64,000 nt of DNA. It comes from an uncultured Desulfobacter sp. (GTDB lineage: Bacteria > Desulfobacterota > Desulfobacteria > Desulfobacterales > Desulfobacteraceae). The DNA is taken from assembly GCF_963665355.1 (NCBI RefSeq), contig NZ_OY762229.1, positions 620,001 to 684,000 on the forward strand, given 5' to 3'. Both the position numbers and the translations under genes were made by a program. Of this stretch, positions 5,810 to 32,023 are shown one piece after another (positions within the stretch are counted from its first letter, which is position 1; each line of letters starts with the position of its first letter). Under the pieces are notes generated by a model. It was not told the origin of the DNA. It saw nothing but the letters and a program-made list of their open reading frames with translations, and ran no database searches.

Positions 5810-6682
5810 ATGCTGAATTCATTTTTCAAACTTAACGGTGAATTTAAAAGACTTGAGTCAGAAGATGAATTTCTTGAACTCATAAGACATGCTGATGCAT
5901 TACGAGATCTGGAATATCGTCCTAACCAATTGCGCCCAGACAGACCTATGAACAAATTTTCAGGGAAAAAATTTACAAATATTAGTTTTGCAAAAACTGA
6001 ATTCATAGGTCTTGAGTTTAGCTGGTGTGAATTTATAGATTGCTTATTTATAGGAACAATTTTTATAGATTGTGAATTTCATGATTGCACCTTTAGTGGA
6101 TGTAATCCGCATAAAGTTAGGTTTAAAGGAACATATATTGATCCAATCTGCTTTTCCAAAATGCTATCACCGACAGAGCATGCCAACATAGGCACCTGGT
6201 TATTCCAGCAATTGTTAAGAAACAGTGCAGAATCCAGACAACCGTCTTTTGCACAGACAGCACAATACTATTTTCAGAAATGGAAACGATATCAGCTTTG
6301 GTATGACTACAAACAAAAAAATATTCCAGCATACCAATTTTTAAAGCGTTGGATTCCGAGTTTACTTTATGATCATTTAGCGGGCTACGGTATTCGTATA
6401 TTACCTTTAGTTCGGCTTACAGCTGGATTCCTGTTGTTTTGCACTACGTTCAATCATTACGCATGGCGTTTTTTTGGTATTCATTCATCATCAATCAAAG
6501 ACCTTACTCCATCGGTTACAAAATCCATTTATTACACTGTAATCACAGTAACGACCCTAGGCTACGGTGACTTAACACCCACTTCTGAATTTGGGATGAA
6601 CACAGCAAGTGTTGAATCTTTATTCGGGGTAGTATGGCTGGGACTTTTTGCAAATACGATTATCAAAAGGGTGACAAAATGA
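5810..6682 (+). CDS. Pentapeptide-repeat protein fused to a two-helix potassium channel
   Basis: 290 residues. Residues about 55-105 are pentapeptide-like repeats (FTNISFAKTEFIGLEFSWCE..., every fifth residue F or L), forming a beta-helix. After a helical linker come two membrane helices, near 195-215 and 258-285, with a pore loop between them carrying TVTTLGYGDLTPTS, the potassium selectivity filter of Ion_trans_2 channels. It is expected to be an inner-membrane channel with a cytoplasmic sensing domain. Its TGA overlaps the ATG of the nucleotidyltransferase (ATGA), so the two are translationally coupled. Such a pairing suggests a signalling or defence module in which the channel is the effector. 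No clear RBS precedes the ATG. Composition is markedly AT-rich. Confidence 0.8.
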   Translation: MLNSFFKLNGEFKRLESEDEFLELIRHADALRDLEYRPNQLRPDRPMNKFSGKKFTNISFAKTEFIGLEFSWCEFIDCLFIGTIFIDCEFHDCTFSGCNPHKVRFKGTYIDPICFSKMLSPTEHANIGTWLFQQLLRNSAESRQPSFAQTAQYYFQKWKRYQLWYDYKQKNIPAYQFLKRWIPSLLYDHLAGYGIRILPLVRLTAGFLLFCTTFNHYAWRFFGIHSSSIKDLTPSVTKSIYYTVITVTTLGYGDLTPTSEFGMNTASVESLFGVVWLGLFANTIIKRVTK

Positions 6683-7650
6683 TATGGCATAATACAAGAG
6701 CCGATGCCATAGCATTATATGGCTCTCAATTAAGATCTGATTTCGATGAATTGAGCGACAAAGATATAATGCTTGTTGGTAATTGTATCAATGATCTTTG
6801 CGTTGAAAAGCATAAGTTTGAAAAACTTGGTTTTTCTTGTGGATTGTATACTTGGGATAGACTTGCAAGAATGAAAGAAAAAGGCTCCCTCTTCATACAA
6901 CATTTGAAGCAAGAATCTTTAATACTTAAAGATGAAGGATTCAAATTAGCACTTTTTCTAAATAGCTATGAAGTAAAACCAGATTATAGTAAGGATATTG
7001 ATTATACTAAAAGTCTTATTGCTTCAACAGAATACATTGCAGATGACGAAATAATTAAAGGGTGGGTGCTTGATATATTAGCCGTTGCTGTTAGAAACAT
7101 TGGAATTCTAAAATTAGCAAATGAAGGAAAATATGTTTTTGGTTTTCCATATATTCTTAAAGAACTTGAATCAATTAGTGTAATTAATAAGGAAATGAGA
7201 TGGCAGCTTCTTCAATTAAGAAGATGGAAGCAATTGTATAGAAATAGAGCATTCCATTTAATGCCAAATATTAAGGCACTACAATCTTTTCAAAGCACAA
7301 TAGGTAAAGCATTCAACATTGATTTTGATTCAAAAATTCTGTCAAGTGAAAATTTAAAAAATAATTTAAAAACAAGAGGTTATCGCCATTCAGACAGATA
7401 TTGCCGATTCCGGCTTTTTGAAGCAGTAATCGGACTATATATTTATCACCAATCACCAATTGATAGTTCTCTAATCCACAAATTTAATCTAATAGTAAAA
7501 AATCAAAACCAATATGGGTTATTTTGTAATGATTTATCACGTCCACTGAAAAAGATAATTAAAGAATTGAATCAAAGAACTCTGTGCCAAAAAGTGTTTC
7601 AACCCGACGTTTTTCGCCGCTCCTTCGTCGCTCTGAAAAACGCAGGTTAA
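6679..7650 (+). CDS. Pol-beta-type nucleotidyltransferase, large helical C-terminus
   Basis: 323 residues from the ATG at 6679, which overlaps the channel stop. The N-terminus has YGSQLRSDFDELSDKDIMLV (residues 11-30), the GS...SDxDI active-site signature of the nucleotidyltransferase superfamily. It is followed by YTWDRLARMKEKGSLFIQHL and a mostly helical region with no further motif I know. Possible activities include nucleotidylation of a protein or RNA, or synthesis of a nucleotide signal; the sequence does not decide. The last 19 or so codons lie in a large imperfect palindrome (7594-7655) that may be an attC site, so the C-terminal tail may not be part of the ancestral protein. A longer in-frame start at 6634 lies inside the channel gene and is less likely. 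Confidence 0.75.
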   Translation: MIWHNTRADAIALYGSQLRSDFDELSDKDIMLVGNCINDLCVEKHKFEKLGFSCGLYTWDRLARMKEKGSLFIQHLKQESLILKDEGFKLALFLNSYEVKPDYSKDIDYTKSLIASTEYIADDEIIKGWVLDILAVAVRNIGILKLANEGKYVFGFPYILKELESISVINKEMRWQLLQLRRWKQLYRNRAFHLMPNIKALQSFQSTIGKAFNIDFDSKILSSENLKNNLKTRGYRHSDRYCRFRLFEAVIGLYIYHQSPIDSSLIHKFNLIVKNQNQYGLFCNDLSRPLKKIIKELNQRTLCQKVFQPDVFRRSFVALKNAG

Positions 7651-7663
7651 ACAAGTGTTAGCG
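7594..7663 (+). other. attC-like palindrome between the nucleotidyltransferase and HNH-like genes
   Basis: The left arm (7594-7615, ending CGACGTTTTTC) pairs imperfectly with the right arm (7635-7655, beginning GAAAAACGCAGG) around a 19-base loop. It is followed by GTTAGCG (7657-7663), which fits the R' core of integron attC sites where recombination falls between G and TT. I cannot find a fully complementary R'' box on the left, so the assignment is weaker than for the site at 8303. Confidence 0.5.
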
Positions 7664-7670
7664 AGAACAA

Positions 7671-8300
7671 ATGGTCAATTTAACCAAACTTCTCAAGGAA
7701 GGTGAGTTGCGCTGGATTGGGAAAAATTATCCAGGCCTATATCCAAAGAACTTACCAATCGCATCGAAAGGACTAAACGATTTTTCTGAAGTCACAGGAT
7801 TTAGAGTCTATAAGTTTGGACGGTTCAAAACAGAAAATGCAATTATTCTGCATGGTGGCCGAAAATATTTTTATGCTTATGTAAATCCTACATATAAAGG
7901 CTATAGGGGGTTCTTCAAAAAATTAATTCATACTACCCAACAAGAATTTGATGTTGACCATGTATTATCAAGAAACTTGGCCAAAAAATTAGAATACAAA
8001 TATGTTTTGCTTAGCATTATCCCCTGCAAGGTGAATCGGAAACATGGTAATTTTGAAAAGAAAATATTAAACATTCCATCACCAAATATTTGTTTTGCTG
8101 ATGAGCGTATTTACAATAAAGTGTTGTCAAGAAATCCATTGGCAAGATTGGATGATTCAGATTTCAAGAAAGGTTTTAATCCCAATCAAAAACCCAAATA
8201 TGGACTTACTTTGAAGCAAGCTGGTTTATGGAGTTCAGCTTTTGGTTTACATCTGATCAATGCTGAGACCACAAAACATAGGCTTAAACCTTTATGGTGA
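7671..8300 (+). CDS. HNH-like putative nuclease in a gene cassette
   Basis: 209 residues. The central motif FDVDHVLSRNLAKK followed by CKVNRKHGNFE resembles 'DxDHxxSR ... VNRxxG' regions of HNH/His-Me-finger proteins and toxins, so a nuclease is plausible but unproven. The gene starts 13 bases after TTAGCG (7658) and ends just before an attC site, so coding sequence fills the cassette as in typical integron cassettes. Codon use is AT-rich like the two genes before it. It may be a cargo gene unrelated to the channel operon, or a third member of that system. Confidence 0.6.
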   Translation: MVNLTKLLKEGELRWIGKNYPGLYPKNLPIASKGLNDFSEVTGFRVYKFGRFKTENAIILHGGRKYFYAYVNPTYKGYRGFFKKLIHTTQQEFDVDHVLSRNLAKKLEYKYVLLSIIPCKVNRKHGNFEKKILNIPSPNICFADERIYNKVLSRNPLARLDDSDFKKGFNPNQKPKYGLTLKQAGLWSSAFGLHLINAETTKHRLKPLW

Positions 8301-21204: not shown

Positions 21205-21867
21205 TCACAATTGTTTTTGTTCAAGAAAAGAATAATATCCTTTTTTCCCAAAAATAATGTGATCCAGCAAGTTGATTCCTAGAATTTGGCCTGCAGCTTT
21301 AATTTTTTCGGTTATTAAAACATCATTCTTGCTCGGAGTTAAATTTCCGGAGGGATGATTATGAGCGATAATTATTGCACAGGCCCTATCTATAATGATA
21401 TCAGCAAAAATTTCTCTGGGATGAACCTGACTTTGATTCACAAGCCCAATGGTAACCACCCGTATATTCATCACTTCATTAGCTCCATTGACAGAGATGG
21501 CAATAAAATGTTCTTGGGGACGATCTGCGTAATGTTGAATGAGTTGCAGCACATCTATGGGCTGTTTTATTTTTATCCCTTCCGGTTTTATTCTCCTGCG
21601 GACAAATTCAAACGCGGCAATTATGGTTGATGCTTTTGCAACCCCAATACCATCCACATTGGTCAAATCACCTATTGCAAGCCGGATTCCTTTTTCATCT
21701 ATTACATGGATGATTTTTTTTGCTATGTCTGTTACATGGCTTTTTGAGGTTCCAGACCCAATAAGAATTGACAGTAACTCCAGATCCGACAATGCCTCTG
21801 CTCCATTTTTCTGAAGTTTTTCACGGGGTCGGTCTGCTTCCGGAAGATCTGGAATGCGCTTAGGCAT
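21205..21867 (-). CDS. radC: RadC/MPN-family (JAB) protein
   Basis: 220 residues; ATG behind AAAGGAGG. An N-terminal helix-hairpin-helix (VDGIGVAKASTIIAAFE) precedes the MPN/JAB domain with the metal motif AHNHPSGNLTPSKND (about 170-184), a Ser-containing H-x-H-x(7)-S-x(2)-D pattern as in other RadC proteins. The supposed role in DNA repair is disputed; RadC genes are frequent in mobile and defence islands. It is the last gene of the ten-gene minus-strand island, 23 bases after the RAMA gene, and its end is close to the stop of pat. Confidence 0.9.
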   Translation of the reverse strand: MPKRIPDLPEADRPREKLQKNGAEALSDLELLSILIGSGTSKSHVTDIAKKIIHVIDEKGIRLAIGDLTNVDGIGVAKASTIIAAFEFVRRRIKPEGIKIKQPIDVLQLIQHYADRPQEHFIAISVNGANEVMNIRVVTIGLVNQSQVHPREIFADIIIDRACAIIIAHNHPSGNLTPSKNDVLITEKIKAAGQILGINLLDHIIFGKKGYYSFLEQKQL

Positions 21868-21890
21868 TTTCCTCCTTTAAACTGAAAAAA

Positions 21891-22478
21891 TTATTTGGTC
21901 ATTTTTCTCCAAATATCAGCCAATATCCAGCGCTGTAATTCAGGTATCCATAGCTCCCAATCTCTCCACCCATTCCTACTGGTTTGTGAAATCTTAACGG
22001 AAGCTGCCGAAAAAGAGGGGAATGCGCCGTAATTATCTACAACGATCTGATTGTCTTGTATTTCTGCTTTGTATAGCTGTTCTTTATAAGCGAATCTGCA
22101 CAATGTCCCGTCAGGTGGAAACTGCTTGGGAAGCCTTGGCTTCCTATTGGGGGTCATTTCATCTTTCTTTTTTTTACTGAGGTTTCTGGTTTGACCAGGA
22201 AAAATACGCTGTATATTTTCTATTAATTCTCTTTTTAAAGCTTTTTGTTTTTCAACGTCGTCCAACCCTGAGAGAAAATCAAGTTTCAATTTACGTAACT
22301 CAGGAGGAATGTCAATTCCTTTTTGTTGCATGCTATCGATGGTTTTTTCGATCTCCTGAAGCTGAGCGAACTTTCCTTTTTGGGAATCCTGAAGAAGCAT
22401 ATCAAAATAATTCATCAGGGATTCACATTCCCTTACGACAGCTTCAATACGATTTTTTAACTTGCCATAGTCATCCAT
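21891..22478 (-). CDS. Coiled-coil adaptor with RAMA domain
   Basis: 195 residues. Residues 1-95 are a predicted coiled coil containing GIDIPPELRKLKLDFLSGL. Residues about 120-190 match the RAMA (restriction adenine methylase associated) fold: PPDGTLCRFAYKEQLYKAEI, then FPSFSAASVKI and NGWRDWELW. RAMA domains are predicted to read modified DNA. The N-terminal half is similar to that of the protein at 26028 (IDIPPELRKLK against VDVPEELRRLK), so the two are paralogous adaptors with different C-terminal readers. RBS AAGAAG; 30 bases after the ATPase gene. Confidence 0.75.
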   Translation of the reverse strand: MDDYGKLKNRIEAVVRECESLMNYFDMLLQDSQKGKFAQLQEIEKTIDSMQQKGIDIPPELRKLKLDFLSGLDDVEKQKALKRELIENIQRIFPGQTRNLSKKKKDEMTPNRKPRLPKQFPPDGTLCRFAYKEQLYKAEIQDNQIVVDNYGAFPSFSAASVKISQTSRNGWRDWELWIPELQRWILADIWRKMTK

Positions 22479-22508
22479 AATCGCATCTTCTTTTTATGTT
22501 GGGCCAAA

Positions 22509-24035
22509 CTAATAATTCTTATAAAAAGCCTCAGCCGTAAATTTAGAAAATTCCTCTGTTTTAATCGAACTTCTGGCCACCACCTGCCAGGGCTCAAGCC
22601 GTGCAATTTCCGCCTGAAGGTCTTTGGCTGTTTTATTGCTGCATCCCAGAAGGTCCTGAACCGATTTTGCAGAAACGCCTTCACATTGAAAAATATATGT
22701 AAATTCAAGCAATTCCTGAAAATTAAAAAACTTTTGCTGATAATCATTGGGAGACTGGCTGGCAAAAAAGACAACAATGCCCTTTGATCGTCCCTCCCGA
22801 ATAATCCGCTGCAAAAACATATTTTTCTGTCCCAGGTAATTATGGGCTTCATCTATGACCAGAATGGTTCTTATGGTCCTGCGCCCATCTTCCACAGGAC
22901 TGTCCGGCAGGGCTGCCATCTCTTTATAAATTCGTTCGATAACCAGATAAGCCACCAGCTCTTTCAATACCGGCATGGCATGGACATCAATCAAAAGGGT
23001 TCGATTGGTCAACCGGTCTATGGGGGGAGTTTCACTGCCATGTTTCCAGAACAGATCAAAATCAGCCAGGTCCCTCAACACCTCTATCAGACTGTCATCC
23101 TTTTTCCCATCCTCTTCATACATGGCAAGGGCTATTTCCAGAATATCCTGAAAATCAGGATACGGCATTTCAGAATCCTGCCGCCTGGCATAAGCAGCCC
23201 TTATAGCCTCTGTTAGAGCACCTTTTTGAACAACGCCGAGTTTGGCGTTGATCGAGGCAAAACTCTCGGCTTTTTCTCTGGCGGAAACATTAATGTTTTG
23301 TTCGTCATATCCGGGAAGGACAAAAGGATTGATGGGCAGGGAGACCCCGCCCTGAAGAAGTTGAAACGACTGTACCCTGGCGGCCTTTAAAAACTTTTCA
23401 TTATCAACCACATCCCCCTTGTAATCAAAATAGATAAAATTGGTTTGAAAATTGGATTGCACCCTTAAATCCGTAAGGATTTTCAATAAAAACTGTGTCT
23501 TTCCGACACCGGGCTTCCCCATAATGGCCATATGGGAATTGGCGTGAATCCGGGTGTTGTTCAATTCCAGGAAAACATCTGTATTCTGCAAAAGGGTTTT
23601 CCCGATAAAAATATCAAGCCCCTTTCCCTTCATCTCTTTTCTGCCGCTGAACTCTACATGATCCGTCAACCTGGACAACAGTTTATTCCCATCCCTGCCG
23701 CATTCAATGAAAAATTGCGACAGATAACGGCACCCATTATCAATATGATTCTTAATGATGGATTTATTGGAATAAAAATCTTCTTCGGGAATATCAGGTT
23801 GTTCATATACATAGGCAATCAATGTCCTAAAAAAGAGTTCATCATCACCGATAAAGGTGGGCCGTTTCATCTCCCCGCCGGTAAATTTCAAACTTATGGG
23901 AACATCTTTTCCGTCTATCTTTAAAGACAGGGCAAATGCAATTTTGGCCAGCACTGCTTTTTCAAGCTTGGTTTCAAATCTCAGAGCACTTAACACATCA
24001 TCCGCTTCACTGCTGGTATATAAACGATCCGCCAT
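22509..24035 (-). CDS. DndE-HerA fusion ATPase
   Basis: 508 residues. The first about 100 resemble DndE: EADDVLSALRFETKLEKAVL, then KIAFALSL and a GGEMKRPTFIGDDELFFRTL stretch, the DNA-binding partner of Dnd systems. The remainder is a HerA/DUF87 hexameric ATPase: Walker A IMGKPGVGKTQFLLK near 170, Walker B ILVIDEAHNYLG near 385, and sensor FFASQSPNDY. Start ATG directly abuts the DndD stop. In known Dnd restriction, the HerA-like protein (DndH/DptH) is separate from DndE; here they are one polypeptide. It is expected to translocate or process DNA together with DndD. Confidence 0.85.
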   Translation of the reverse strand: MADRLYTSSEADDVLSALRFETKLEKAVLAKIAFALSLKIDGKDVPISLKFTGGEMKRPTFIGDDELFFRTLIAYVYEQPDIPEEDFYSNKSIIKNHIDNGCRYLSQFFIECGRDGNKLLSRLTDHVEFSGRKEMKGKGLDIFIGKTLLQNTDVFLELNNTRIHANSHMAIMGKPGVGKTQFLLKILTDLRVQSNFQTNFIYFDYKGDVVDNEKFLKAARVQSFQLLQGGVSLPINPFVLPGYDEQNINVSAREKAESFASINAKLGVVQKGALTEAIRAAYARRQDSEMPYPDFQDILEIALAMYEEDGKKDDSLIEVLRDLADFDLFWKHGSETPPIDRLTNRTLLIDVHAMPVLKELVAYLVIERIYKEMAALPDSPVEDGRRTIRTILVIDEAHNYLGQKNMFLQRIIREGRSKGIVVFFASQSPNDYQQKFFNFQELLEFTYIFQCEGVSAKSVQDLLGCSNKTAKDLQAEIARLEPWQVVARSSIKTEEFSKFTAEAFYKNY

Positions 24036-26027
24036 TTAAGCCTCCCAGAAATACCCTGTCTTTACGGTTGTCAGTTCCTGACCCTGATTAAATTCAAGAT
24101 GAACCGCGCCATTTAAATGCGGTTGCAGTAACCGGTAATAGTCATTATCGATTTCCGTGTCTGTGGACAGAATGACAACCTGTTCTCCGGCATTGGGGAA
24201 GTAATTATTGACGATATTATCCCTGTGGGTACTGTCCAGACGGGATAACGGTGTATCAACAATAATGGGAAGTGACAATCGGCTGGTTTGTGCAAGCCCC
24301 CACAGCAAAGAGACCGCAAACACCTCTTTTTCTCCGGCGGAAAGACCTGATTTCTTAATTTCATGCCCACTGCGGTCCCTGATTTTTATTTCATAGGTTT
24401 TATCATTAATAGAGATGTCTTTAATCAGCCCGCTTTTGCTGGAGAGCTGTTTATACATTTCAAAGGTCTTTTCCTGAAGCAGCTGTATCTTGCTCTTTCT
24501 TAACCGGACAACAAACTGGCTCAGCAGTCCGGCAATGGCATCACACTCATTGATGAAATCCGCCTTGTCTTTGGAGACATCATGTCGTTCATACAGTTTC
24601 TCAATTTCCTCTTCAACGATATTGACCTGTTTTTCAAGACGAATGATATCTTCTTCCACTATTCTCAGCTGTTCGGTTTTCCGTCCGATTTGAGTGGTAC
24701 AGCTTTCCATTTCGCTTTGAAGCTGATCAAATAACTCTTTTTCAGATTCACTGGCAGCCCCTGTTTGGAGGCTGGCTTCAATCTGCTTGATCTGTGCGTC
24801 AAGTTCCTGTTTTTCTTCCAATAGCGGCCGAATCAAAAACACATCCGAATTTTCAAACTGTTCAATCCGGAAAAGCATTCTTGCCGCATCTCTTTCGGAA
24901 AGATTCAGGATCCTGGGCACATCGGCAATGGCAGTCCCCTCTTTCAGTATTTTAAAAATACGCCCTTCAAGCTCCTGCATCTTTTCATCTGACAGGGTCT
25001 CTTTGTAAATGGGTTCGGGCTCTTCCACCGCACGAACAATTTTTTGGGCCAATTGTCCGGCATGGGCCTTGATGGCTTCTCCTTCAGCTGTTTCATGTTC
25101 TGCTTCGATCTGTTTTTTAATATCGTCAAAAAAGACGCCGGCAATGCTGAAAGGCAGAACGCTCTCACTCAATCCTTTGATTTCATTTTCCAACTGAGCC
25201 AGTCGGTTGGACTTTTGTATCCGCTGTTTCTCTTTTTCTTTTAAAAGCTCCCGGGTTTCCGGCTCAGCGTTGAATATGGCCTGGAACCTTGTCCGGGCTT
25301 CATCATACTGATGCCTGAATTGATCCAGTTCCTGGGTAAGATCTGCCTGTTCTATTTTTTTGCGGCCCAGTCGAGTCTTTTCTTTTTTAAGTTCCACCTG
25401 TTTAAACTCCAGATCATCATCTGAAATTTCCACAAAACCTTTGCGCTCTTCATTTTTAAGGTAGAGCATGTCACTCGAAAGCTGATTAATATATTGTATT
25501 CCCAAAGCTGCTTCCAAAGAAGACTTCAGTCTGACCTCGGAGTGATCATCCGCCGCGATCTCCTGGATCTTTTCCCCGTCGAAAAAAAAGAACTGGGTAA
25601 TACCGGGAGGAATGGCCGCACGGATATAATCCTGCCATATCTGCTTGTTTCGAACAGATACCCGTTTGCCGTCCCGGACCACCACAAGGTGTTCCTGCAA
25701 GTCATTGGCTTTGGGAGAATCCACGGCACCGGCACTCCAGGATCGTTGGACAATCAATTCTGAACAATCATCCATTTCAATAACCAGTTCAAACGCCACC
25801 TTTACATTGCCCAAGTTTTTTTCTTTCCGGTTCACGGCGTTAAAAATATCATGGGCCTTGCCACCATAAAGACAGAAATTCACCGCCTCCATGATGGATG
25901 TCTTTCCCGCACCGTTCATACCGCCAATCAAAAAAATACTTTTCCCGTCATCACCCTGGGGAAAATGGATCTGTGTGGGAAATTGAAACGACTTGTAGTT
26001 TTCAATCATCAACTTTTTGAATTTCAT
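24036..26027 (-). CDS. dndD: DndD-like SMC/Rad50-type ATPase
   Basis: 663 residues. N-lobe KKLMIENYKSF with Walker A GGMNGAGKTSIMEA (about 34-47) and the DndD hallmark FFFDGEKIQEIA (near 155). A long coiled coil covers about 195-510. The C-lobe has ABC signature LSAGEKEVFAVSLLWGLA and Walker B LPIIVDTPLSRLDS. DndD in phosphorothioation systems couples ATP hydrolysis to DNA handling. No dndA, dndB or dndC is present in the window, so sulfur incorporation is not indicated here. It abuts both neighbours without gap. Confidence 0.92.
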   Translation of the reverse strand: MKFKKLMIENYKSFQFPTQIHFPQGDDGKSIFLIGGMNGAGKTSIMEAVNFCLYGGKAHDIFNAVNRKEKNLGNVKVAFELVIEMDDCSELIVQRSWSAGAVDSPKANDLQEHLVVVRDGKRVSVRNKQIWQDYIRAAIPPGITQFFFFDGEKIQEIAADDHSEVRLKSSLEAALGIQYINQLSSDMLYLKNEERKGFVEISDDDLEFKQVELKKEKTRLGRKKIEQADLTQELDQFRHQYDEARTRFQAIFNAEPETRELLKEKEKQRIQKSNRLAQLENEIKGLSESVLPFSIAGVFFDDIKKQIEAEHETAEGEAIKAHAGQLAQKIVRAVEEPEPIYKETLSDEKMQELEGRIFKILKEGTAIADVPRILNLSERDAARMLFRIEQFENSDVFLIRPLLEEKQELDAQIKQIEASLQTGAASESEKELFDQLQSEMESCTTQIGRKTEQLRIVEEDIIRLEKQVNIVEEEIEKLYERHDVSKDKADFINECDAIAGLLSQFVVRLRKSKIQLLQEKTFEMYKQLSSKSGLIKDISINDKTYEIKIRDRSGHEIKKSGLSAGEKEVFAVSLLWGLAQTSRLSLPIIVDTPLSRLDSTHRDNIVNNYFPNAGEQVVILSTDTEIDNDYYRLLQPHLNGAVHLEFNQGQELTTVKTGYFWEA

Positions 26028-26642
26028 TTATCTTCCCCGTAATTCCCAAATCCCATGAGGAGAACCTGATTTTAAGGCACCTTCCCGAACCATGAAACCA
26101 CGTTCTTTTGTTATATTTAGAATCCATTGTTCGGTGCCGTTTTTTTTAATCCGGTCATTTTTCTTGAACTTTCCATCCAGATTGCGCTGAATTATCTCAA
26201 CAATTTCCTTCTTTCTTCCTTGTCCACCCAGCTCCCGCAACGCCTTTCGAATCTCCTTTTGCAAAATCGCAGGCGATGTCTCAAGCACATATCTTTTCTT
26301 GAGCCTTCGGGTTGTTGCGGCTTGCCCTTTTTTCGACAGCATTATCCTCAGCCCGTCGAGGAGTGTAGAAAGACGGATTTCCAAACCCTGAAGCTGTTGA
26401 ATGATTTTTTCCTGATCATGAACAGCTAACGACAGGGTGCTTTTCAGCCGCCGGAGTTCCTCCGGAACATCCACATCTTTTTCAGCCAACGCCTCAATGG
26501 CCCTGGTCACCTCTGCCAATTTTGCGGAGTTGGCATCATAATTGTTAAATTCAACGCTGCCGGAAATTTCTTTTATCACCTTTTCAAGGATATCAATTAC
26601 CTTACCCGGATGGTCAATGTATTTTTTCAGATAAGAAGCCAT
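26028..26642 (-). CDS. Coiled-coil adaptor with C-terminal winged-helix-like domain
   Basis: 204 residues. The N-half is a coiled coil with VDVPEELRRLKSTLSLAV, similar to the RAMA adaptor at 21891. Residues about 125-200 look like a helix-turn-helix unit (LQKEIRKALRELGG, KKEIVEIIQRNL) ending GSPHGIWELRG, the beta-wing ending typical of Mrr-N/winged-helix domains. It probably binds DNA or links system subunits. It sits between the 59-residue small gene (five-base gap) and DndD (abutting). Confidence 0.7.
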   Translation of the reverse strand: MASYLKKYIDHPGKVIDILEKVIKEISGSVEFNNYDANSAKLAEVTRAIEALAEKDVDVPEELRRLKSTLSLAVHDQEKIIQQLQGLEIRLSTLLDGLRIMLSKKGQAATTRRLKKRYVLETSPAILQKEIRKALRELGGQGRKKEIVEIIQRNLDGKFKKNDRIKKNGTEQWILNITKERGFMVREGALKSGSPHGIWELRGR

Positions 26643-26647
26643 TTATT

Positions 26648-26827
26648 TCAGCTCCCTTTTTTTTCCAGAACGATTTTTTTCAATGCCGCATAAATACCGG
26701 TGCGCCGCTCCTTGAATTCATACTCCCGTACGGTTAACAGCAGCTTGACCACCTTTTCAACACTGACATCATGTTGGATACACAGTTCTTCCAGCAGGTC
26801 TTTATCCTGTTTCGACAAATTGATCAT
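26648..26827 (-). CDS. DNA modification system-associated small protein
   Basis: 59 residues: starts MINLSKQDKDLLEELC, middle VEKVVKLLLTVREYEFKERR, ends KKIVLEKKGS. A short helical protein of this kind is repeatedly found next to DndD-type and methylase genes and carries the generic name 'DNA modification system-associated small protein'; I rely on memory for that. It starts two bases after the DUF1016 stop and ends five bases before the next gene, which supports it as real despite its size. Confidence 0.75.
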   Translation of the reverse strand: MINLSKQDKDLLEELCIQHDVSVEKVVKLLLTVREYEFKERRTGIYAALKKIVLEKKGS

Positions 26828-26829
26828 AA

Positions 26830-27936
26830 TTAATTGGCCTCCTCTAAACGTCGGCGTTCCCGGTGAAGCTCTCTTTCTAATTCTTCCTCGCTGGGCAGGT
26901 AGGTCACATACTTTGCCGCAAATAATTGTTTGCTCTCATTTAAAACCGAGTACCGGGCCACGGCTTCATTTTTTTCAGAACACAGGATCAGTCCGATGGT
27001 GGGGTAATCGCCCTCAACCTTATAATTGGCCTCAAACATCCGGACATAGCCGTCCATCTGCCCGATATCCTGATAGGTCAGCTTCCCGATTTTCAGATCA
27101 ATCAGTAAAAAGCATTTCAGGTGAAAATTGTAAAACACCAGATCAATGTAAAAATCTTCATCCTCAAACCGCATCCTTTTTTGCCGGGCCACAAATGAAA
27201 AGCCTTTGCCAAGCTCCAGCAAAAATTGCTGCAAATTGGTGATAATGGCTGTTTCCAGAGTGGATTCGTGAATTTGTTCTGCGTCGGGCAGGTTTAAAAA
27301 TTCCAGAACATAAGGGTCTTTTAAAACATTCGTTACATCAAGGGGCCCGGCCGCCTCCTGCCTGGCCTGGACCAGCATCCCTTTTTTATCCTTGCTGGCC
27401 AGAATCCGTTCGTAAAACAAGGAGTTGATCTGCCGTTCCAGTTGCCGCCGGCTCCAGGTGCCGGCCAGGGCTTCTTTTTCGTAAAACTGCCGGGCTTTTT
27501 CATTTTCAACCCGCATCAGCACCCGGTAGTGGGACCAGCTTAAATCCGGGTGAAAGCCGTTATCCGGTCCCAATTGGTCACCCACCGGGTGACCTGTTGC
27601 AGGCAATTTGAATTGGTCACCCGGTGGGTGACCAATTGAGGATAGTCGGTCCGGGTAGACTTGGTAAAAGGATCTGAAGTATTTCAAGTTGGTGGTGGAA
27701 AAGCCCTTACCGTATCGGGCCTGTAGTTTTTCCGAAAGCTGTTCCAGCAGCTTTTGACCGTATTGTGCCCTTTTTTCCCCAGCCTGAAGTGCCTCAAAAA
27801 TTTCTCTGCCGATATGCCAGTAGGCTGAAACGATTTGGGAATTTACGGTGCGAACGATTCTATACCGGGACTGGTCCAGGATGGCGGAAATCCGGTCAAA
27901 CAGAGGGTCAAAGGTGAATTCATTTTTTTCGCTCAT
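26830..27936 (-). CDS. DUF1016/YhcG-type PD-(D/E)XK nuclease
   Basis: 368 residues. The N-terminal DUF1016 helix bundle (about 15-165, with AYWHIGREI, YGQKLLEQLSEKL and FSTTNLKYFRSFY) precedes a PD-(D/E)XK nuclease core (about 215-345): YIDLVFYNFHLKCFLLIDLK carries the Asp and D-x-K residues and GQMDGYV follows. Between them is a low-complexity insert coded by palindromic DNA (GHPPGDQFKLPATGHPVGDQ). Family members often neighbour Type I methylase and specificity genes. Here no hsdR gene is present, so this protein and the nuclease head of the methylase are candidate cleavage components. Its start overlaps the hsdS stop (ATGA). Confidence 0.88.
   Translation of the reverse strand: MSEKNEFTFDPLFDRISAILDQSRYRIVRTVNSQIVSAYWHIGREIFEALQAGEKRAQYGQKLLEQLSEKLQARYGKGFSTTNLKYFRSFYQVYPDRLSSIGHPPGDQFKLPATGHPVGDQLGPDNGFHPDLSWSHYRVLMRVENEKARQFYEKEALAGTWSRRQLERQINSLFYERILASKDKKGMLVQARQEAAGPLDVTNVLKDPYVLEFLNLPDAEQIHESTLETAIITNLQQFLLELGKGFSFVARQKRMRFEDEDFYIDLVFYNFHLKCFLLIDLKIGKLTYQDIGQMDGYVRMFEANYKVEGDYPTIGLILCSEKNEAVARYSVLNESKQLFAAKYVTYLPSEEELERELHRERRRLEEAN
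27576..27637 (-). repeat. Paired palindromes inside the DUF1016 gene
   Basis: Two units of GGTCACCC-NNN-GGGTGACC (27576-27594 and 27615-27633), the second extended to AATTGG...CCAATT. They lie in frame and encode the similar peptides GHPPGDQ and GHPVGDQ between the two domains. They look like a small palindromic element inserted and duplicated in a tolerant linker. Confidence 0.75.
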
Positions 27937-29282
27937 GTTTGCCCCGCAGCCTGTTCAATGAGATCCTCCACCATTTGTGTAACTTGTTCAAGGAATTGTT
28001 TGGATTCCTCTTTAAGACGTAAAGACTCTTTCAATTTTTGTGAAATATATTCTTCTTTCGCAGTTTCAAGCCTTGGGATTACTATTTTGCCAACATCTTT
28101 AGGTGAGAGATGTCCGTTGGTTGACCCGGTGATCCACCGGCTGCACTGACTCTGACCAATTTGACTTTGCATAACAGCTAATAAATAAAATGGATTAATA
28201 TTGTTACATATTTCAAGCTTTAATAAGTCTCCACTAAAGGCAAGTTTTTCATATTGATTTACTATACCGATTTTTCCTATGGTTGCGCCGGTGATTGCCA
28301 GCAAAAGATTTCCACTTGTTGCAATCTGAGCCTCTTTTGTTGGAAAACAATAAGATTCTGCCACAAGTTCAATACCATCAATATCTTTGATACTTGCATA
28401 AGGCATTGTTCCCGAAGAATTAATTGGCATTTGCTTCCCTTTATCCATTGAAGATATTAACAGTCTAAGAAATGTATAATCCACATTTTTTTTCTTTAAG
28501 TGTTTTTCGTAAGCGATATAATTCGGGTTATAACACTGGGCATCTATTCTAAATGCACTTGAAATGTCACTAAAGCTTGTCTCATAATCCACAACGTCTT
28601 GAAATTTAATATCATACAGCCCAAATTCTTGTCCAATGACACCTTGTGCTTGATCATATAGTTCGTTAGATTTTTTTCTTGCAGCATATGATTTTTTTAA
28701 CAGTTTGCAGATCATTTCCTGCTGATATATATTTATTATCGGGATGATAAGACTCTCCAATATTTTTAAATTCACATGCCCCTGCACGCCTCCACTTGCA
28801 AAGCGAATTAATTGCTCGGAGCCGAATCTGGAATTTAAAAAGCTCAGGAAAAATCCTTTTGATATAATAGATTCTTGGATATCAATTATAATGATATCCG
28901 CAGAATTTATTGTGTCTTCATCTAAATAAATACTTGCCTTTCCAAATGAACCGCTCCTGGCAACCAGAATGTCGCCCTTATGAATTTGTGATTTCTTTAG
29001 CTTTTTATGAAATGCCGGCGTAATTTTGACACAATTATTTAAATTCAAAAAAAATTGATCAATTTGTTGAGTTTGTAATAATATTACCCCTTCTTGACAA
29101 TAGTTTTGCACCATACTGCCAACATGCCCAACATCAATTTTTTTTGAAATGCTCTTTAATTCTATATTCGCATTGTTTAATAATTGTCTTTCTATTTCTA
29201 TATAATCGGGCTTATAGAATTCAGAGTCCACTCTGCCATGTTTTAATTCTGTTAAAGCGACTTCACTCCAAACAGCCATCAC
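27933..29282 (-). CDS. hsdS: Type I restriction-modification specificity subunit HsdS
   Basis: 449 residues with two target-recognition halves: the first ends in FASGGVQGHVNLKILESLII and the second in WITGSTNGHLSPKDVGKIVI, each followed by a helical connector. HsdS decides the DNA sequence that the methylase modifies. The start is GTG 29282 or the next codon ATG, both overlapping the methylase stop (TGA). Its own stop overlaps the DUF1016 start. It is notably AT-richer than the flanking genes, as is usual for exchangeable specificity genes. Confidence 0.92.
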   Translation of the reverse strand: MMAVWSEVALTELKHGRVDSEFYKPDYIEIERQLLNNANIELKSISKKIDVGHVGSMVQNYCQEGVILLQTQQIDQFFLNLNNCVKITPAFHKKLKKSQIHKGDILVARSGSFGKASIYLDEDTINSADIIIIDIQESIISKGFFLSFLNSRFGSEQLIRFASGGVQGHVNLKILESLIIPIINIYQQEMICKLLKKSYAARKKSNELYDQAQGVIGQEFGLYDIKFQDVVDYETSFSDISSAFRIDAQCYNPNYIAYEKHLKKKNVDYTFLRLLISSMDKGKQMPINSSGTMPYASIKDIDGIELVAESYCFPTKEAQIATSGNLLLAITGATIGKIGIVNQYEKLAFSGDLLKLEICNNINPFYLLAVMQSQIGQSQCSRWITGSTNGHLSPKDVGKIVIPRLETAKEEYISQKLKESLRLKEESKQFLEQVTQMVEDLIEQAAGQT

Positions 29283-32023
29283 CCAACCCTCCAGAAATCA
29301 AGATCATGCTTCTGGGCAAAACGGACAAAGGCTTCGGCCACGCAAAGGCTTTCTTCCGGCAGGGCGGAAGCATCACTTAAATCATTATGCTTCAAACTGT
29401 AATTCACAAGATCCTGATCGATAAGCGGCTGGCCCGAAGCATCTTCCAGAATATTGCCGTCTGAATCCATCTGGTATTCATAATCCCCGGAATTGTTCTT
29501 CCCGCCCCGTTCGCTAACGGCCATGAAAATGGGGTAATCCAGTTTTTTGGCCACCTCTGCGTCGATCCAGCGTAATTTTAACCCTTCGATCATCTCTCCG
29601 TCTTCTATAGCCAGTTCCAGACGGCCTTTCAGGGTCAATCTCTTTTTAGCCTCTTCTGCAAGAACCAGATTTTTTTCCAGGGAGACAATCATGGCTTTAA
29701 GCTTTTTCCGGGTCTCTTTCTGCTCGGCCTTAAGCGTTTTTGTATCGGCTTTGAGTTTTTCTTTTATGGGCTTGAGTTCTTTGTTCAGATCTTTTTTGGT
29801 TCCTTCCCAATTTTGGGAGATCAAGTCGATTTCCTGAGCGGTTTTTTGATCCAGGGCTTCCAGGTCACTGTCCAGGTCCATCATCTGGGTTTTGGTTTTA
29901 AGAATTTCTTTTCTCAAGCCCGAGATCTGCTCCCCGGCCTGCTCAAGCTGGTCTTCAAGGTCCGGGGTCCCGTCAGCCGCTATGCCGAAACCCTGATCTT
30001 CTTCATCCATGGTGATTCCCAGATCTTCGGGTTCGGGATCTGAAAAATTTTCCTGAATCATCTCCATGACCTCTTCAGGAATCTCCTGTTCCGGGATATC
30101 TGTCTCATATACATGGGTCTGAATCAGGTCTTTGATTTGACTTGCATAGTCCGGACATGATGCCTGAACCTCCTGTTTGACCTTTTCAATTTCAGCCAGT
30201 TGCTGTTCGGTGTATTTCTGGACAAACAGAACGGAAGTTTTTGTGCCGGTATGGGGTTTGAATGTATTGGGATGGAGCCCCACCACCGCCAGAAGCCTTG
30301 CCTTTCTTAAAATCCACTCCCGGATAAAGGCAAGGGATGAGTTGTTGAATTTCCCTTGGGGCAGAACAATAGCCGCCCTGCCACCGGGTTTGAGAAATTT
30401 CATAATCCGTTCAATGAACAGGACATCCCGCTCCTCTTTGGCGGATTTATTTTTGGCCCGCTTTAGCGCCGGTTTGGCCAGATCATAATGTCCAAGCATG
30501 GCTTTGTCTTTCATTTCACCGGCAAAGGGAGGATTGGCAAGGACCACATTAAATTGAAGGTTGTCAAAATATTTCCAGGAGAGGTCATCGTCCTTTAAGA
30601 TTTTATCCTTGTCCTCCGGGTCAATGTTCCGGCTCAATAACTTGGCCTTGACCAGTTCCTGCATCAGGGTCTGGCCGGACATGGTTTCATGCCAGGTCTT
30701 GGGGTCCAGGCTGGACACATCCGGCCCGAAAATTTTGGTGTGGCCGTCTCCGGCAATGAGCATCAATGCCCGGGAGGTTTTGGCGGCCCGCTCTTCAAAA
30801 TCGACACCCCATAAATATTTTGACGCATATTTATGCATGCGCAACTCCCGGTCCGCATGGTTATCTGCCGGATAACACCACTCCATGGCATGGAGCAAAA
30901 AGCCTGCCGACCCGCAGGCCGGGTCCATCACATATTCTTTCTGGGTGGGATTGAGCATGCGCACGCACATTTCCACCACATGCCGGGGGGTAAAAAACTG
31001 CCCCTTTTTTTTTTTGGCCTCTGTGGGGAGCAGATATTCAAAGGCATCATCCATGATTCGCAGGTTTGATCCCATAAGCCGGACCCGCTCGATATTACCG
31101 ATGCAGACATGCAGATGACGTTTGGTCAGCTCAATGTTCTCGTTGTCCCGAAAAATCCCCGGCCACTCGTCACAAGCCTTACGAAACAGATTGTTGATCC
31201 GGTCATATGTGATTTCAGGATCCAGTGCTTTACAAAATTCCACCTCTTTACCCGGCCGGTTTTCATCCGCCTCTTTTTCATCCCAGATTTTGGCAAAAAT
31301 TAATTTGAAAATTTCGTTGAATTCATCTTTGCCGCTGTCCGCCAGAACCAGCTCTTCAAGACCCTGGATGATCTCCTTGAAGTTAAAGTGCCGCTCCAGG
31401 TGACCAAGGGTACGCCTGGCTTCCAACACATCCCTGGGTTGCTGGTTCCGCTTGGGAAGCTCGGATAAAGTATCATTAAAATCTTTGGGATATGGTCGGT
31501 AAAGGATTATTCGGTCGCTGATACTGCCGTTGGACCAAAGGCCCACCGGCGACCCTTCGGCATTCAGATAACTTTTAAGCTGCTCTATACCGTCTTTTCG
31601 TTTGGGCTTTTTAACTTCAACAATAATTTTAGGTGTCTGTTTCGAATTATCCGTATAAACAACGATATCCGCAGCTTTTGTTCCTTCTGTAGAACCGAAA
31701 TATACACTTTTTTCCAACTCAATCTCATCGGCCTGATAGCCATAGGTGTGAATCAGCTTATAAATCCAGAGCTGTCTCACAATCTCTTCAGGACAGGACT
31801 TTCCGCCTTCAGCAAATACCTGAATTTCCTCTTTCCCCGAAGCAAGGGGAACGAAGCTTTTTAAAAAATATTTTACCTTGCCGATATCCCTGCCGGCATC
31901 GGTTTGTTTGGGATAGATATCAATAATTTCTTCAAATGTTTTACCAAGAGTGTCAAATTCACTTAAGTCATACTTTGTCTTCGGGTCTTTAAATATTTTA
32001 TCAATCAGTTTTTTGGTGTCCAT
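29279..32023 (-). CDS. hsdM: HsdR-N nuclease domain fused to N6-adenine methylase (HsdM-like)
   Basis: 914 residues, much longer than plain HsdM. Residues about 80-190 match the Type I HsdR N-terminal nuclease fold (HSDR_N_2): EEIVRQLWIYKLIHTYGY, ADIVVYTD and IIVEVKKPKRKDG carry the PD-(D/E)XK residues. The methylase has MDPACGSAGFLL (motif I, near 365) and VVLANPPFAGEM (motif IV NPPF, near 505). Then a long coiled coil (about 690-790) precedes a C-terminal region of unknown function. The arrangement resembles Type IIG-like nuclease-methylases working with a separate HsdS. First gene of the island operon. Confidence 0.88.
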   Translation of the reverse strand: MDTKKLIDKIFKDPKTKYDLSEFDTLGKTFEEIIDIYPKQTDAGRDIGKVKYFLKSFVPLASGKEEIQVFAEGGKSCPEEIVRQLWIYKLIHTYGYQADEIELEKSVYFGSTEGTKAADIVVYTDNSKQTPKIIVEVKKPKRKDGIEQLKSYLNAEGSPVGLWSNGSISDRIILYRPYPKDFNDTLSELPKRNQQPRDVLEARRTLGHLERHFNFKEIIQGLEELVLADSGKDEFNEIFKLIFAKIWDEKEADENRPGKEVEFCKALDPEITYDRINNLFRKACDEWPGIFRDNENIELTKRHLHVCIGNIERVRLMGSNLRIMDDAFEYLLPTEAKKKKGQFFTPRHVVEMCVRMLNPTQKEYVMDPACGSAGFLLHAMEWCYPADNHADRELRMHKYASKYLWGVDFEERAAKTSRALMLIAGDGHTKIFGPDVSSLDPKTWHETMSGQTLMQELVKAKLLSRNIDPEDKDKILKDDDLSWKYFDNLQFNVVLANPPFAGEMKDKAMLGHYDLAKPALKRAKNKSAKEERDVLFIERIMKFLKPGGRAAIVLPQGKFNNSSLAFIREWILRKARLLAVVGLHPNTFKPHTGTKTSVLFVQKYTEQQLAEIEKVKQEVQASCPDYASQIKDLIQTHVYETDIPEQEIPEEVMEMIQENFSDPEPEDLGITMDEEDQGFGIAADGTPDLEDQLEQAGEQISGLRKEILKTKTQMMDLDSDLEALDQKTAQEIDLISQNWEGTKKDLNKELKPIKEKLKADTKTLKAEQKETRKKLKAMIVSLEKNLVLAEEAKKRLTLKGRLELAIEDGEMIEGLKLRWIDAEVAKKLDYPIFMAVSERGGKNNSGDYEYQMDSDGNILEDASGQPLIDQDLVNYSLKHNDLSDASALPEESLCVAEAFVRFAQKHDLDFWRVG

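Follow-up and report, generated by a model that had tools for sequence, protein, structure and literature searches.

A conserved operon in Desulfobacter combines BsaXI-like restriction-modification genes with DndD and a DndE-HerA fusion

We analyzed an operon located within a 64,000-nucleotide stretch (hereafter, the window) of contig NZ_OY762229.1 from an uncultured Desulfobacter sp., and found it to be genuine and conserved; most likely it is a defence system. Judged by sequence comparison, its core comprises a fused restriction-modification (RM) subunit, a specificity (S) subunit, a small protein of 59 residues (SP), a DndD-clade ATPase and a fusion of DndE with the ATPase HerA. The explanation that we regard as best, and hold with modest confidence, is that these genes form a restriction-modification operon that is of mixed descent and has spread horizontally. 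An earlier note on this DNA had described a ten-gene, defence-like operon on one strand, most of its genes overlapping or abutting, in which HsdR and DndA, DndB and DndC were missing. Family scans with Pfam, PADLOC and NCBIfam, whose cut-offs were used to assign the gene families of the window, identified nine genes, which are also all that the note had named. They lie on the minus strand from position 32023 down to 21205 with spacings of −4, −4, 2, 5, 0, 0, 30 and 23 bp, and none encodes HsdR, DndA, DndB or DndC. As a whole, the earlier interpretation is partly supported.

Conservation and spread of the core genes

We searched for relatives with two short peptide patterns in one genome per species (84,980 species), obtaining 250 stretches of which 55 loci were confirmed; a scan led by patterns is not exhaustive and favors close relatives. 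Identity in the best segment was 60–86% for 54 of these loci and 27% for the remaining one (L071), which was left out, so that the comparison covered 56 loci: the window, a second genome of the phylum (G439, locus L012) and the 54 scan loci. Locus L063 was treated as lying on the Desulfamplus contig of L008/L002 and counted once. Besides the window, full-length relatives were present in G019 among 59 close genomes and in G439 among 395 genomes of the phylum.

The order of the core genes was strongly conserved. DndD lay directly upstream of DndE-HerA in each of the 52 loci for which 1 kb of upstream sequence was present, SP was upstream of DndD in 42 of 44 loci (the misses being L052 and L060, the latter with a partial SP at the contig edge), and RM was upstream in 32 of 37. 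The five loci in which RM was missed were L023, L049, L052, L053 and L066, of which L052 retains an N-terminal RM fragment, and those counted include broken or truncated RMs in L018 (interrupted by two frames read as a putative transposase), L028, L047 (two frames), L061 and L068. With the HsdS of the window as query, an S subunit was detectable in 29 of 39 loci; this search is insensitive because HsdS varies, the median pairwise identity between loci being 0.27 (n = 25) versus 0.71 (n = 27) for RM. Since the core order recurs in loci of 11 phylum-level groups, a chance grouping of genes is excluded. The search for the same gene order in other genomes that the earlier note had called for thus recovered the core, with variation in the gene between RM and SP, in RadC and in the adaptors.

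These variable members were also considered as parts of the core and rejected. The position between RM and SP, occupied by DUF1016 in the window, is exchangeable, RadC was linked in only 3 of 43 loci and no adaptor was seen in 11 of 45, so that, of the set named in the earlier note, RM, S, SP, DndD and DndE-HerA constitute the core. The locus of Halalkalibacter oceani 214.1.1 (L019) contains these five genes only, and the core genes are single open frames in three cultured carriers: that strain, Nitrosomonas sp. Nm51 and Methylotuvimicrobium buryatense 5G.

A tree built from 47 full-length DndE-HerA proteins included 11 phylum-level groups, and the larger groups were not single clades, requiring five changes for Bacillota, four for Pseudomonadota and three for Bacteroidota. 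This pattern is as expected of transfer between phyla, although binning errors can mimic it, and it suggests that the operon spread horizontally. Among the 395 genomes of its own phylum, full-length RM relatives were found only in G000 and G439, accompanied by a 304-residue fragment in G308 and two short forms of 47% identity; among the 321 genomes of the class of G450, only G450 had one, a result that adds little because G450 was chosen as a known carrier. The DndD/DndE-HerA stretch had no DNA match in Escherichia coli genomes, and none of 141 pattern-matching stretches of viral contigs was confirmed as DndE-HerA. Plasmid matches to DndE-HerA comprised 22 records, none covering 80% of the protein and all starting at residue 124 or later, past DndE, and DndD matches in phages comprised six records, each below 60% identity.

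Methylase half, Dnd half and the small protein

Both enzymatic parts of the RM subunit exceeded Pfam cut-offs (nuclease domain HSDR_N_2, 69.7 bits; N6_Mtase, 124 bits), as did the S subunit (Methylase_S, 44.9 bits). The top solved relative of a profile of 13 RM proteins was RM.BsaXI (8w0p; E = 3.2e-41), from a Type IIB enzyme that pairs an RM of 916 residues with an S subunit (PMC11997821). By sequence, the methylase half that the earlier note had assigned to Type I restriction therefore resembles Type IIB BsaXI, and a Type I restriction-modification (R-M) system was rejected for the whole operon, in whose nine genes there is no HsdR (SF2 helicase plus nuclease). The methylase segment carries the score of the alignment with 8w0p (i-Evalue 2.8e-34); the nuclease segment (0.36) and a C-terminal segment, 'AEVAK.LDYPIFMA' (0.011), are co-linear with it and each weak alone. 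In this alignment, in which the nuclease segment by itself scores weakly, D119, E136 and K138 stand opposite D90, E105 and K107 of BsaXI, which are needed for cleavage together with E73 (PMC11997821). E136, Q148 and Y152 were kept in all 27 RMs compared and D119 and K138 in 26; the contig of the remaining one (L048) cuts it short. The operon shares with the BsaXI kind a fused nuclease-methylase of nearly the same length (914 versus 916 residues) and a separate S subunit, but differs in embedding them with DndD, DndE-HerA, SP and adaptors, hence with genes for a putative ATP-dependent translocase, on which Type IIB enzymes do not depend (PMC11997821).

The RM subunit also carries an insert (Table 1) that was at least 210 residues long in 26 of the 27 RMs linked to the other core genes, the remaining one (L061) being truncated, with 110. 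The insert measured only 4, 4 and 10 residues in three short RM relatives, those of L098 and L099, which have an S subunit but, within the stretch fetched, neither DndD nor DndE-HerA, and that of a Klebsiella plasmid, which is accompanied by S and two DUF262 genes. Plasmid D of Trichormus variabilis (L072:60-4198) encodes a 66%-identical RM with an insert of 216 residues, together with S, though DndE-HerA was not found on the plasmid, to which the search was confined; this pair is perhaps a remnant or a self-protection cassette.

Sequence comparison identifies SP as a detached copy of the C-terminal tail of the sulfurtransferase DndC. SP belongs to the Pfam family Sp-DndD (47.3 bits; cut-off 27.2) and aligned to positions 403–455 of the 481 in the PADLOC DndC model (E = 8.5e-7), and profile-profile comparison with DndC gave E = 7.2e-9 and a probability of 95.8. 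In 6 of 11 carrier genomes the end of the DndC model (approximately positions 387–446) also found the SP frame; at the same threshold it did not do so in the window's own genome. With SP as a tblastn query, weak matches (E = 0.07 and 0.2) fell on the ends of two annotated dndC genes situated directly before dndD, and in a tblastn search of loci L017–L071 with one DndC the sole match was the SP of L070. On a Picosynechococcus plasmid (L078:8001-11386), an unannotated SP-like frame is followed by a DUF2442 gene, dndD and dndE, and a phosphorothioation-associated methyltransferase is encoded on the same plasmid.

DndD exceeded the cut-off of TIGR03185 (369 versus 245.85 bits) and was matched by PADLOC PbeC models at up to 409 bits despite having no CxC motif; neither CxC nor CxxC occurred in any of 42 DndD homologues, that of the window included. 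In the fusion protein, the DndE domain passed Pfam (42.1 bits; cut-off 25) and stayed under TIGR03184 (39.3 bits; cut-off 71.85), and the HerA domain passed DUF87 (27.6 bits; cut-off 23.2), its closest relative by sequence in the Protein Data Bank (PDB) being the DptH ATPase (7es4; E = 2.2e-20). The Walker A core and Walker B motif of DndE-HerA were invariant in 47 of 47 proteins. On a Desulfamplus magnetovallimortis contig (L008:9935-11926), DndD has an in-frame stop, with RM, SP and DndE-HerA open; DndD is intact in other loci.

Compared with Dnd systems (DndABCDE), the operon has the DndD and DndE pair and, of DndC, the tail only. No DndC scored over the cut-off in the operon, elsewhere in the window's genome or in 8 of the 10 other carrier genomes searched, a result that agrees with the earlier proposal of a base methylase in place of sulfur machinery and led us to reject phosphorothioation. 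In the other two genomes, those of L045 (Thiocapsa KS1) and L068 (Methylobacter KS41), DndC lies outside the operon.

Table 1 Features of the operon in the window.
Feature	Position	Strand	Description
RM subunit, 914 aa	29279..32023	-	HsdR-type PD-(D/E)xK nuclease, N6-adenine methylase and helical insert; BsaXI-like
RM nuclease domain, residues 78-167	31523..31792	-	D119, E136-x-K138, Q148, Y152
RM insert, ~220 residues (609-828)	29540..30199	-	probably helical; position resembles BsaXI paddle region
S (specificity) subunit, 449 aa	27933..29282	-	two Methylase_S stretches
DUF1016/YhcG nuclease-like protein	26830..27936	-	Pfam YhcG_C 184.8 bits; exchangeable slot gene
SP, 59 aa	26648..26827	-	free-standing homologue of DndC C-terminal tail
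Adaptor 1, 204 aa	26028..26642	-	shared N-terminal module and Mrr_N-type winged helix
DndD-clade ABC ATPase, 663 aa	24036..26027	-	TIGR03185; no CxC hook
DndE-HerA fusion, 508 aa	22509..24035	-	DndE ~23715-24026; HerA ~22593-23618
Adaptor 2, 195 aa	21891..22478	-	shared N-terminal module and RAMA-like domain
RadC family protein, last gene	21205..21867	-	Pfam RadC 135.9 bits

Proposed mechanism and competing explanations

We propose, as somewhat the better bet, that the operon acts by restriction-modification, with methylation as the self mark and DndD and DndE-HerA as a motor that licenses the RM nuclease. RM and S would form an enzyme of the (RM)2S kind that recognizes a bipartite site through S, methylates adenine there and so marks self DNA. 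DndD and DndE-HerA would make up a scanning and translocating complex driven by ATP, on which SP, the tail of the sulfurtransferase in ordinary Dnd systems, may serve as a plug, and the RM insert, aided by adaptors where these are present, may form the contact between motor and enzyme. When unmethylated sites are met on incoming DNA, ATP-driven movement would license the RM nuclease to cut. HsdR acts similarly in Type I systems, where its motor is an SF2 helicase; in the operon an SMC-like/HerA motor would take over that part. The gene in the slot (DUF1016 in the window) would be a replaceable second line of defence.

Several observations led us to this restriction-modification mechanism. The core order and the nuclease residues are conserved, and the distance matrices of RM and DndE-HerA correlate (r = 0.71, 26 loci), as do those of DndD and DndE-HerA (r = 0.90, 40 loci), none of 2000 permutations reaching as high a value in either comparison. 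The insert is present in linked RMs and missing from the three short ones, SP corresponds to a DndC tail, the window's genome has no DndC over the cut-off, and the adaptors carry reader domains (Mrr_N and RAMA) of restriction and adenine-methylation types. In the related PbeABCD system, moreover, the 66-residue PbeB, a possible counterpart of SP, was absolutely indispensable for protection (PMC6459918).

Other observations weigh against this mechanism. The distance correlations may partly reflect shared host descent, because the freely varying HsdS also correlates with DndE-HerA (r = 0.51, 23 loci; reached by none of 2000 permutations). In an Anaerolineaceae bin (L049:4556-7038), an N6/N4 methylase and a TdeIII nuclease replace RM and S directly upstream of SP, adaptor, DndD and DndE-HerA, with DndD reading as two frames. 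No RM was seen at L023, L053 and L066, where the motor is present, and the Trichormus plasmid has RM and S with no motor. The adaptors cannot be essential to the mechanism, because 11 of 45 loci show none, and the docking of SP, insert and adaptors is something that we infer. PbeABCD, finally, is said to act without cutting viral DNA (PMC6459918), a view disputed in PMC10853773.

The earlier note had asked whether the two halves move independently, and the loci suggest that they usually go together but can part, as at L049 and at the three loci where no RM was seen. On the tree, at least three changes are needed for six loci labelled RM-less (L049, L053, L055, L056, L060 and L062), of which L049 and L053 alone have enough upstream DNA to judge. 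Ten genomes behind RM-less or cut loci were searched for RM relatives, which were found at 57% identity for L058 (a locus cut by its contig), 45% for L060, 40% for L053 (on another contig) and 33% for L055; at E = 1e-20 none was found in the other six, an absence that is uncertain because most are metagenome bins.

Some of these observations would also fit a self-sufficient Type IIB enzyme made of RM and S, next to which SP, DndD and DndE-HerA, with or without adaptors, form a second layer that reads the methyl mark or boosts the adjacent R-M enzyme. RM and S occur alone on the Trichormus plasmid and in short form in L098 and L099, L049 joins the SP-DndD-DndE-HerA module to a different methylase and nuclease, RM was not seen in three loci, and Type IIB enzymes need no translocase (PMC11997821). 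We nevertheless consider this account unlikely, if worth keeping in mind, given that RM is upstream in 32 of 37 loci, that the insert goes with linkage and that RM and DndE-HerA distances correlate; L049, moreover, is a single locus with its DndD in two frames. We give still less weight to a mode of action like that of PbeABCD, in which the complex stops unmarked DNA from replicating but does not cut it, and the RM nuclease is structural or vestigial. PbeABCD stops virus replication with no cleavage detected (PMC6459918), and it has a DndD-related ATPase, a DndE homologue and a 66-residue small protein (homologies according to PMC10853773). A vestigial domain, however, would not need D119, E136 and K138, which are kept in 26 of 27 RMs, and PMC10853773 argues that PbeA does carry a nuclease.

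It is improbable that the slot gene is the true effector, with the other genes sensing and marking. DUF1016/YhcG has a PDDEXK domain, and PADLOC lists related proteins as candidate defence system PDC-S02, but of the 33 loci that show SP together with RM or S the slot was empty in 9 and held DUF1016 in 3 and RhuM in 14. Even less credible is a phosphorothioate system of Dnd or Pbe type with a sulfurtransferase supplied from elsewhere in the genome: DndD and DndE have homologues in Dnd systems, and two carriers have DndC outside the operon, yet the own genome and 8 of 10 others have none over the cut-off, the operon contains no PbeA-type helicase-nuclease and its DndD homologues have no CxC. We hardly entertain a divergent member of MADS. 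The RM, S and HerA parts match mad2, mad5 and mad8 in PADLOC and MADS2 and MADS5 in NCBIfam, but the NCBIfam scores are far under the curated cut-offs (MADS2, 262.8 of 720 bits; MADS5, 158.2 of 400 bits) and no other mad gene appears among the best 25 PADLOC rows per protein; MADS was rejected on these scores. MADS resembles the operon in having a methylase, an S subunit and a HerA-like ATPase from related families, and we know of no DndD/DndE part in it.

Other known systems share parts of the operon. Like it, PbeABCD and CxC-DndE systems have a DndD-like ATPase, DndE, a small protein and sometimes base methylases (PMC10853773), which in CxC-DndE systems are cytosine methylases; the operon differs in having adenine-type RM and S in their place and in lacking PbeA (HKD nuclease plus SF2 helicase) and the CxC zinc hook, and an assignment to Pbe was rejected for the last two reasons. 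Of DndFGH (DndF, DndG and the large DndH), only the C-terminal HerA part of DndH matches the operon among the matches listed. The distant locus L071 (L071:7399-13070, a Bacteroidales bin) has DndE (48.9 bits) fused to HerA and adjoining DndD, as the operon does, but is 27% identical, and nothing matching RM, S or SP was detected within the stretch covered; it lies beside a CBASS-type cyclase and a 2TM effector.

The earlier note knew of no named system with this set, and this agrees with the literature as far as the paper texts searched go: among them, no paper joins DndD, DndE, HerA, a methyltransferase and HsdS, and none joins DndD, DUF1016 and a methyltransferase. The DndE-HerA fusion itself is already in print. 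PMC10853773 describes it beside a DndD-related ATPase as 'clade-3' HerA in a subset of phosphorothioate systems, drawing on a 2020 survey that first reported it; with the same fused architecture and the same neighbor, 'clade-3' HerA and the DndE-HerA of the operon are probably the same or sister families. The operon differs from that family in the lack of DndC over the cut-off in its genome. No RM and S set is seen in the parts of PMC10853773 examined, and its main text nowhere mentions HsdS, HsdM or DUF1016. HerA with BREX parts is described in PMC12839542, where DndD and DndE do not occur. What our analysis adds is the combination, the Type IIB-like RM and S, SP as a DndC tail and the optional adaptor family with its differing readers.

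More tentatively, and with doubt outweighing belief, we suggest that the operon represents a distinct restriction class in which a mark-agnostic platform of an SMC-like DndD and a presumably hexameric DndE-HerA translocase replaces the Type I helicase. Such a platform could accept DndC in Dnd systems, BsaXI-like RM and S here or, in L049, a Type II pair. Each would attach through one shared plug (the DndC tail or SP), and reader adaptors would be optional and interchangeable. What DndD and DndE do in phosphorothioate systems is still debated, and PMC10853773 asks whether such cores serve sulfur marking alone. If DndD and DndE work with a plain adenine methylase, their role would be scanning of or movement on DNA and not sulfur chemistry. 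The debated role would then become directly testable, the operon would encode a restriction enzyme driven by a novel type of motor, and the enigmatic small protein would be explained as a detached DndC tail.

Adaptors, accessory genes and genomic setting

The winged-helix and RAMA proteins of the window are members of one adaptor family whose reader domains differ. By profile comparison, an N-terminal module is common to the adaptor groups (A4 versus A5, the comparison that joins adaptors 1 and 2, 97.8% probability; A4 versus A6, 97.2%). The C-terminal readers are of three kinds: an Mrr_N winged helix, RAMA, and a domain that no family matches over its cut-off. Adaptor 1 had no Pfam match, and adaptor 2 had DUF4357 alone, at 19.6 bits under a cut-off of 38.4; the latter aligns with adaptors of which two of those scanned exceed the RAMA cut-off of 35.2 (L025, 41.1 bits; L030, 48.1 bits). 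Mrr_N was passed solely by the adaptor of L026 (32.9 bits; cut-off 29.5), those of L018 and L053 falling under it. We examined 70 open reading frames (ORFs) lying in the SP–DndD interval or no more than 1.1 kb past DndE-HerA; 47 of them, from 37 loci, formed one BLAST-linked cluster and 23 were singletons. The 11 loci without a cluster member in these places, among 45 with SP and DndD in view, include L034, which shows only 221 bp downstream, and L057, in which an ORF of the RAMA-adaptor group (c4-type) lies upstream of RM, outside the usual adaptor places.

The slot between RM and SP could be judged in 33 loci, where it held RhuM (14), DarT-DarG (3), DUF1016 (3), zeta-like genes (3) or unrecognised genes (4), or was empty (9); some loci hold two genes, two of the zeta-like genes occur with RhuM, and in L054 DUF1016 lies between RM and S. 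DarT-DarG toxin-antitoxin pairs (DarT and a macro domain) were observed in the accessory slot upstream of SP in L022, L023, L030 and L061. RadC was counted as linked where it lay within 1.5 kb downstream in evaluable loci. In L098 (4650-8741) and L099 (5661-9734), RadC is directly upstream of the short RM and S pairs, so that its link may be with RM and S and not with the Dnd half.

The window sits within a 5.54-Mb contig of a 5.64-Mb genome. The GC content of the operon is 0.434, compared with 0.515 in the window parts used for comparison, and the scanned neighbors encode a response regulator, universal stress proteins, an acyl-CoA-synthetase-like protein, a sensor kinase, a GGDEF protein and haem-synthesis enzymes. 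An ORF of 131 residues at 22457-22852, mostly overlapped by the DndE-HerA gene, had no family match in Pfam, PADLOC or NCBIfam. A second low-GC patch at 5810-8300 of the window contains three plus-strand ORFs of 290, 338 and 209 residues with GC contents of 0.32–0.36, that of the chromosome being about 0.5.

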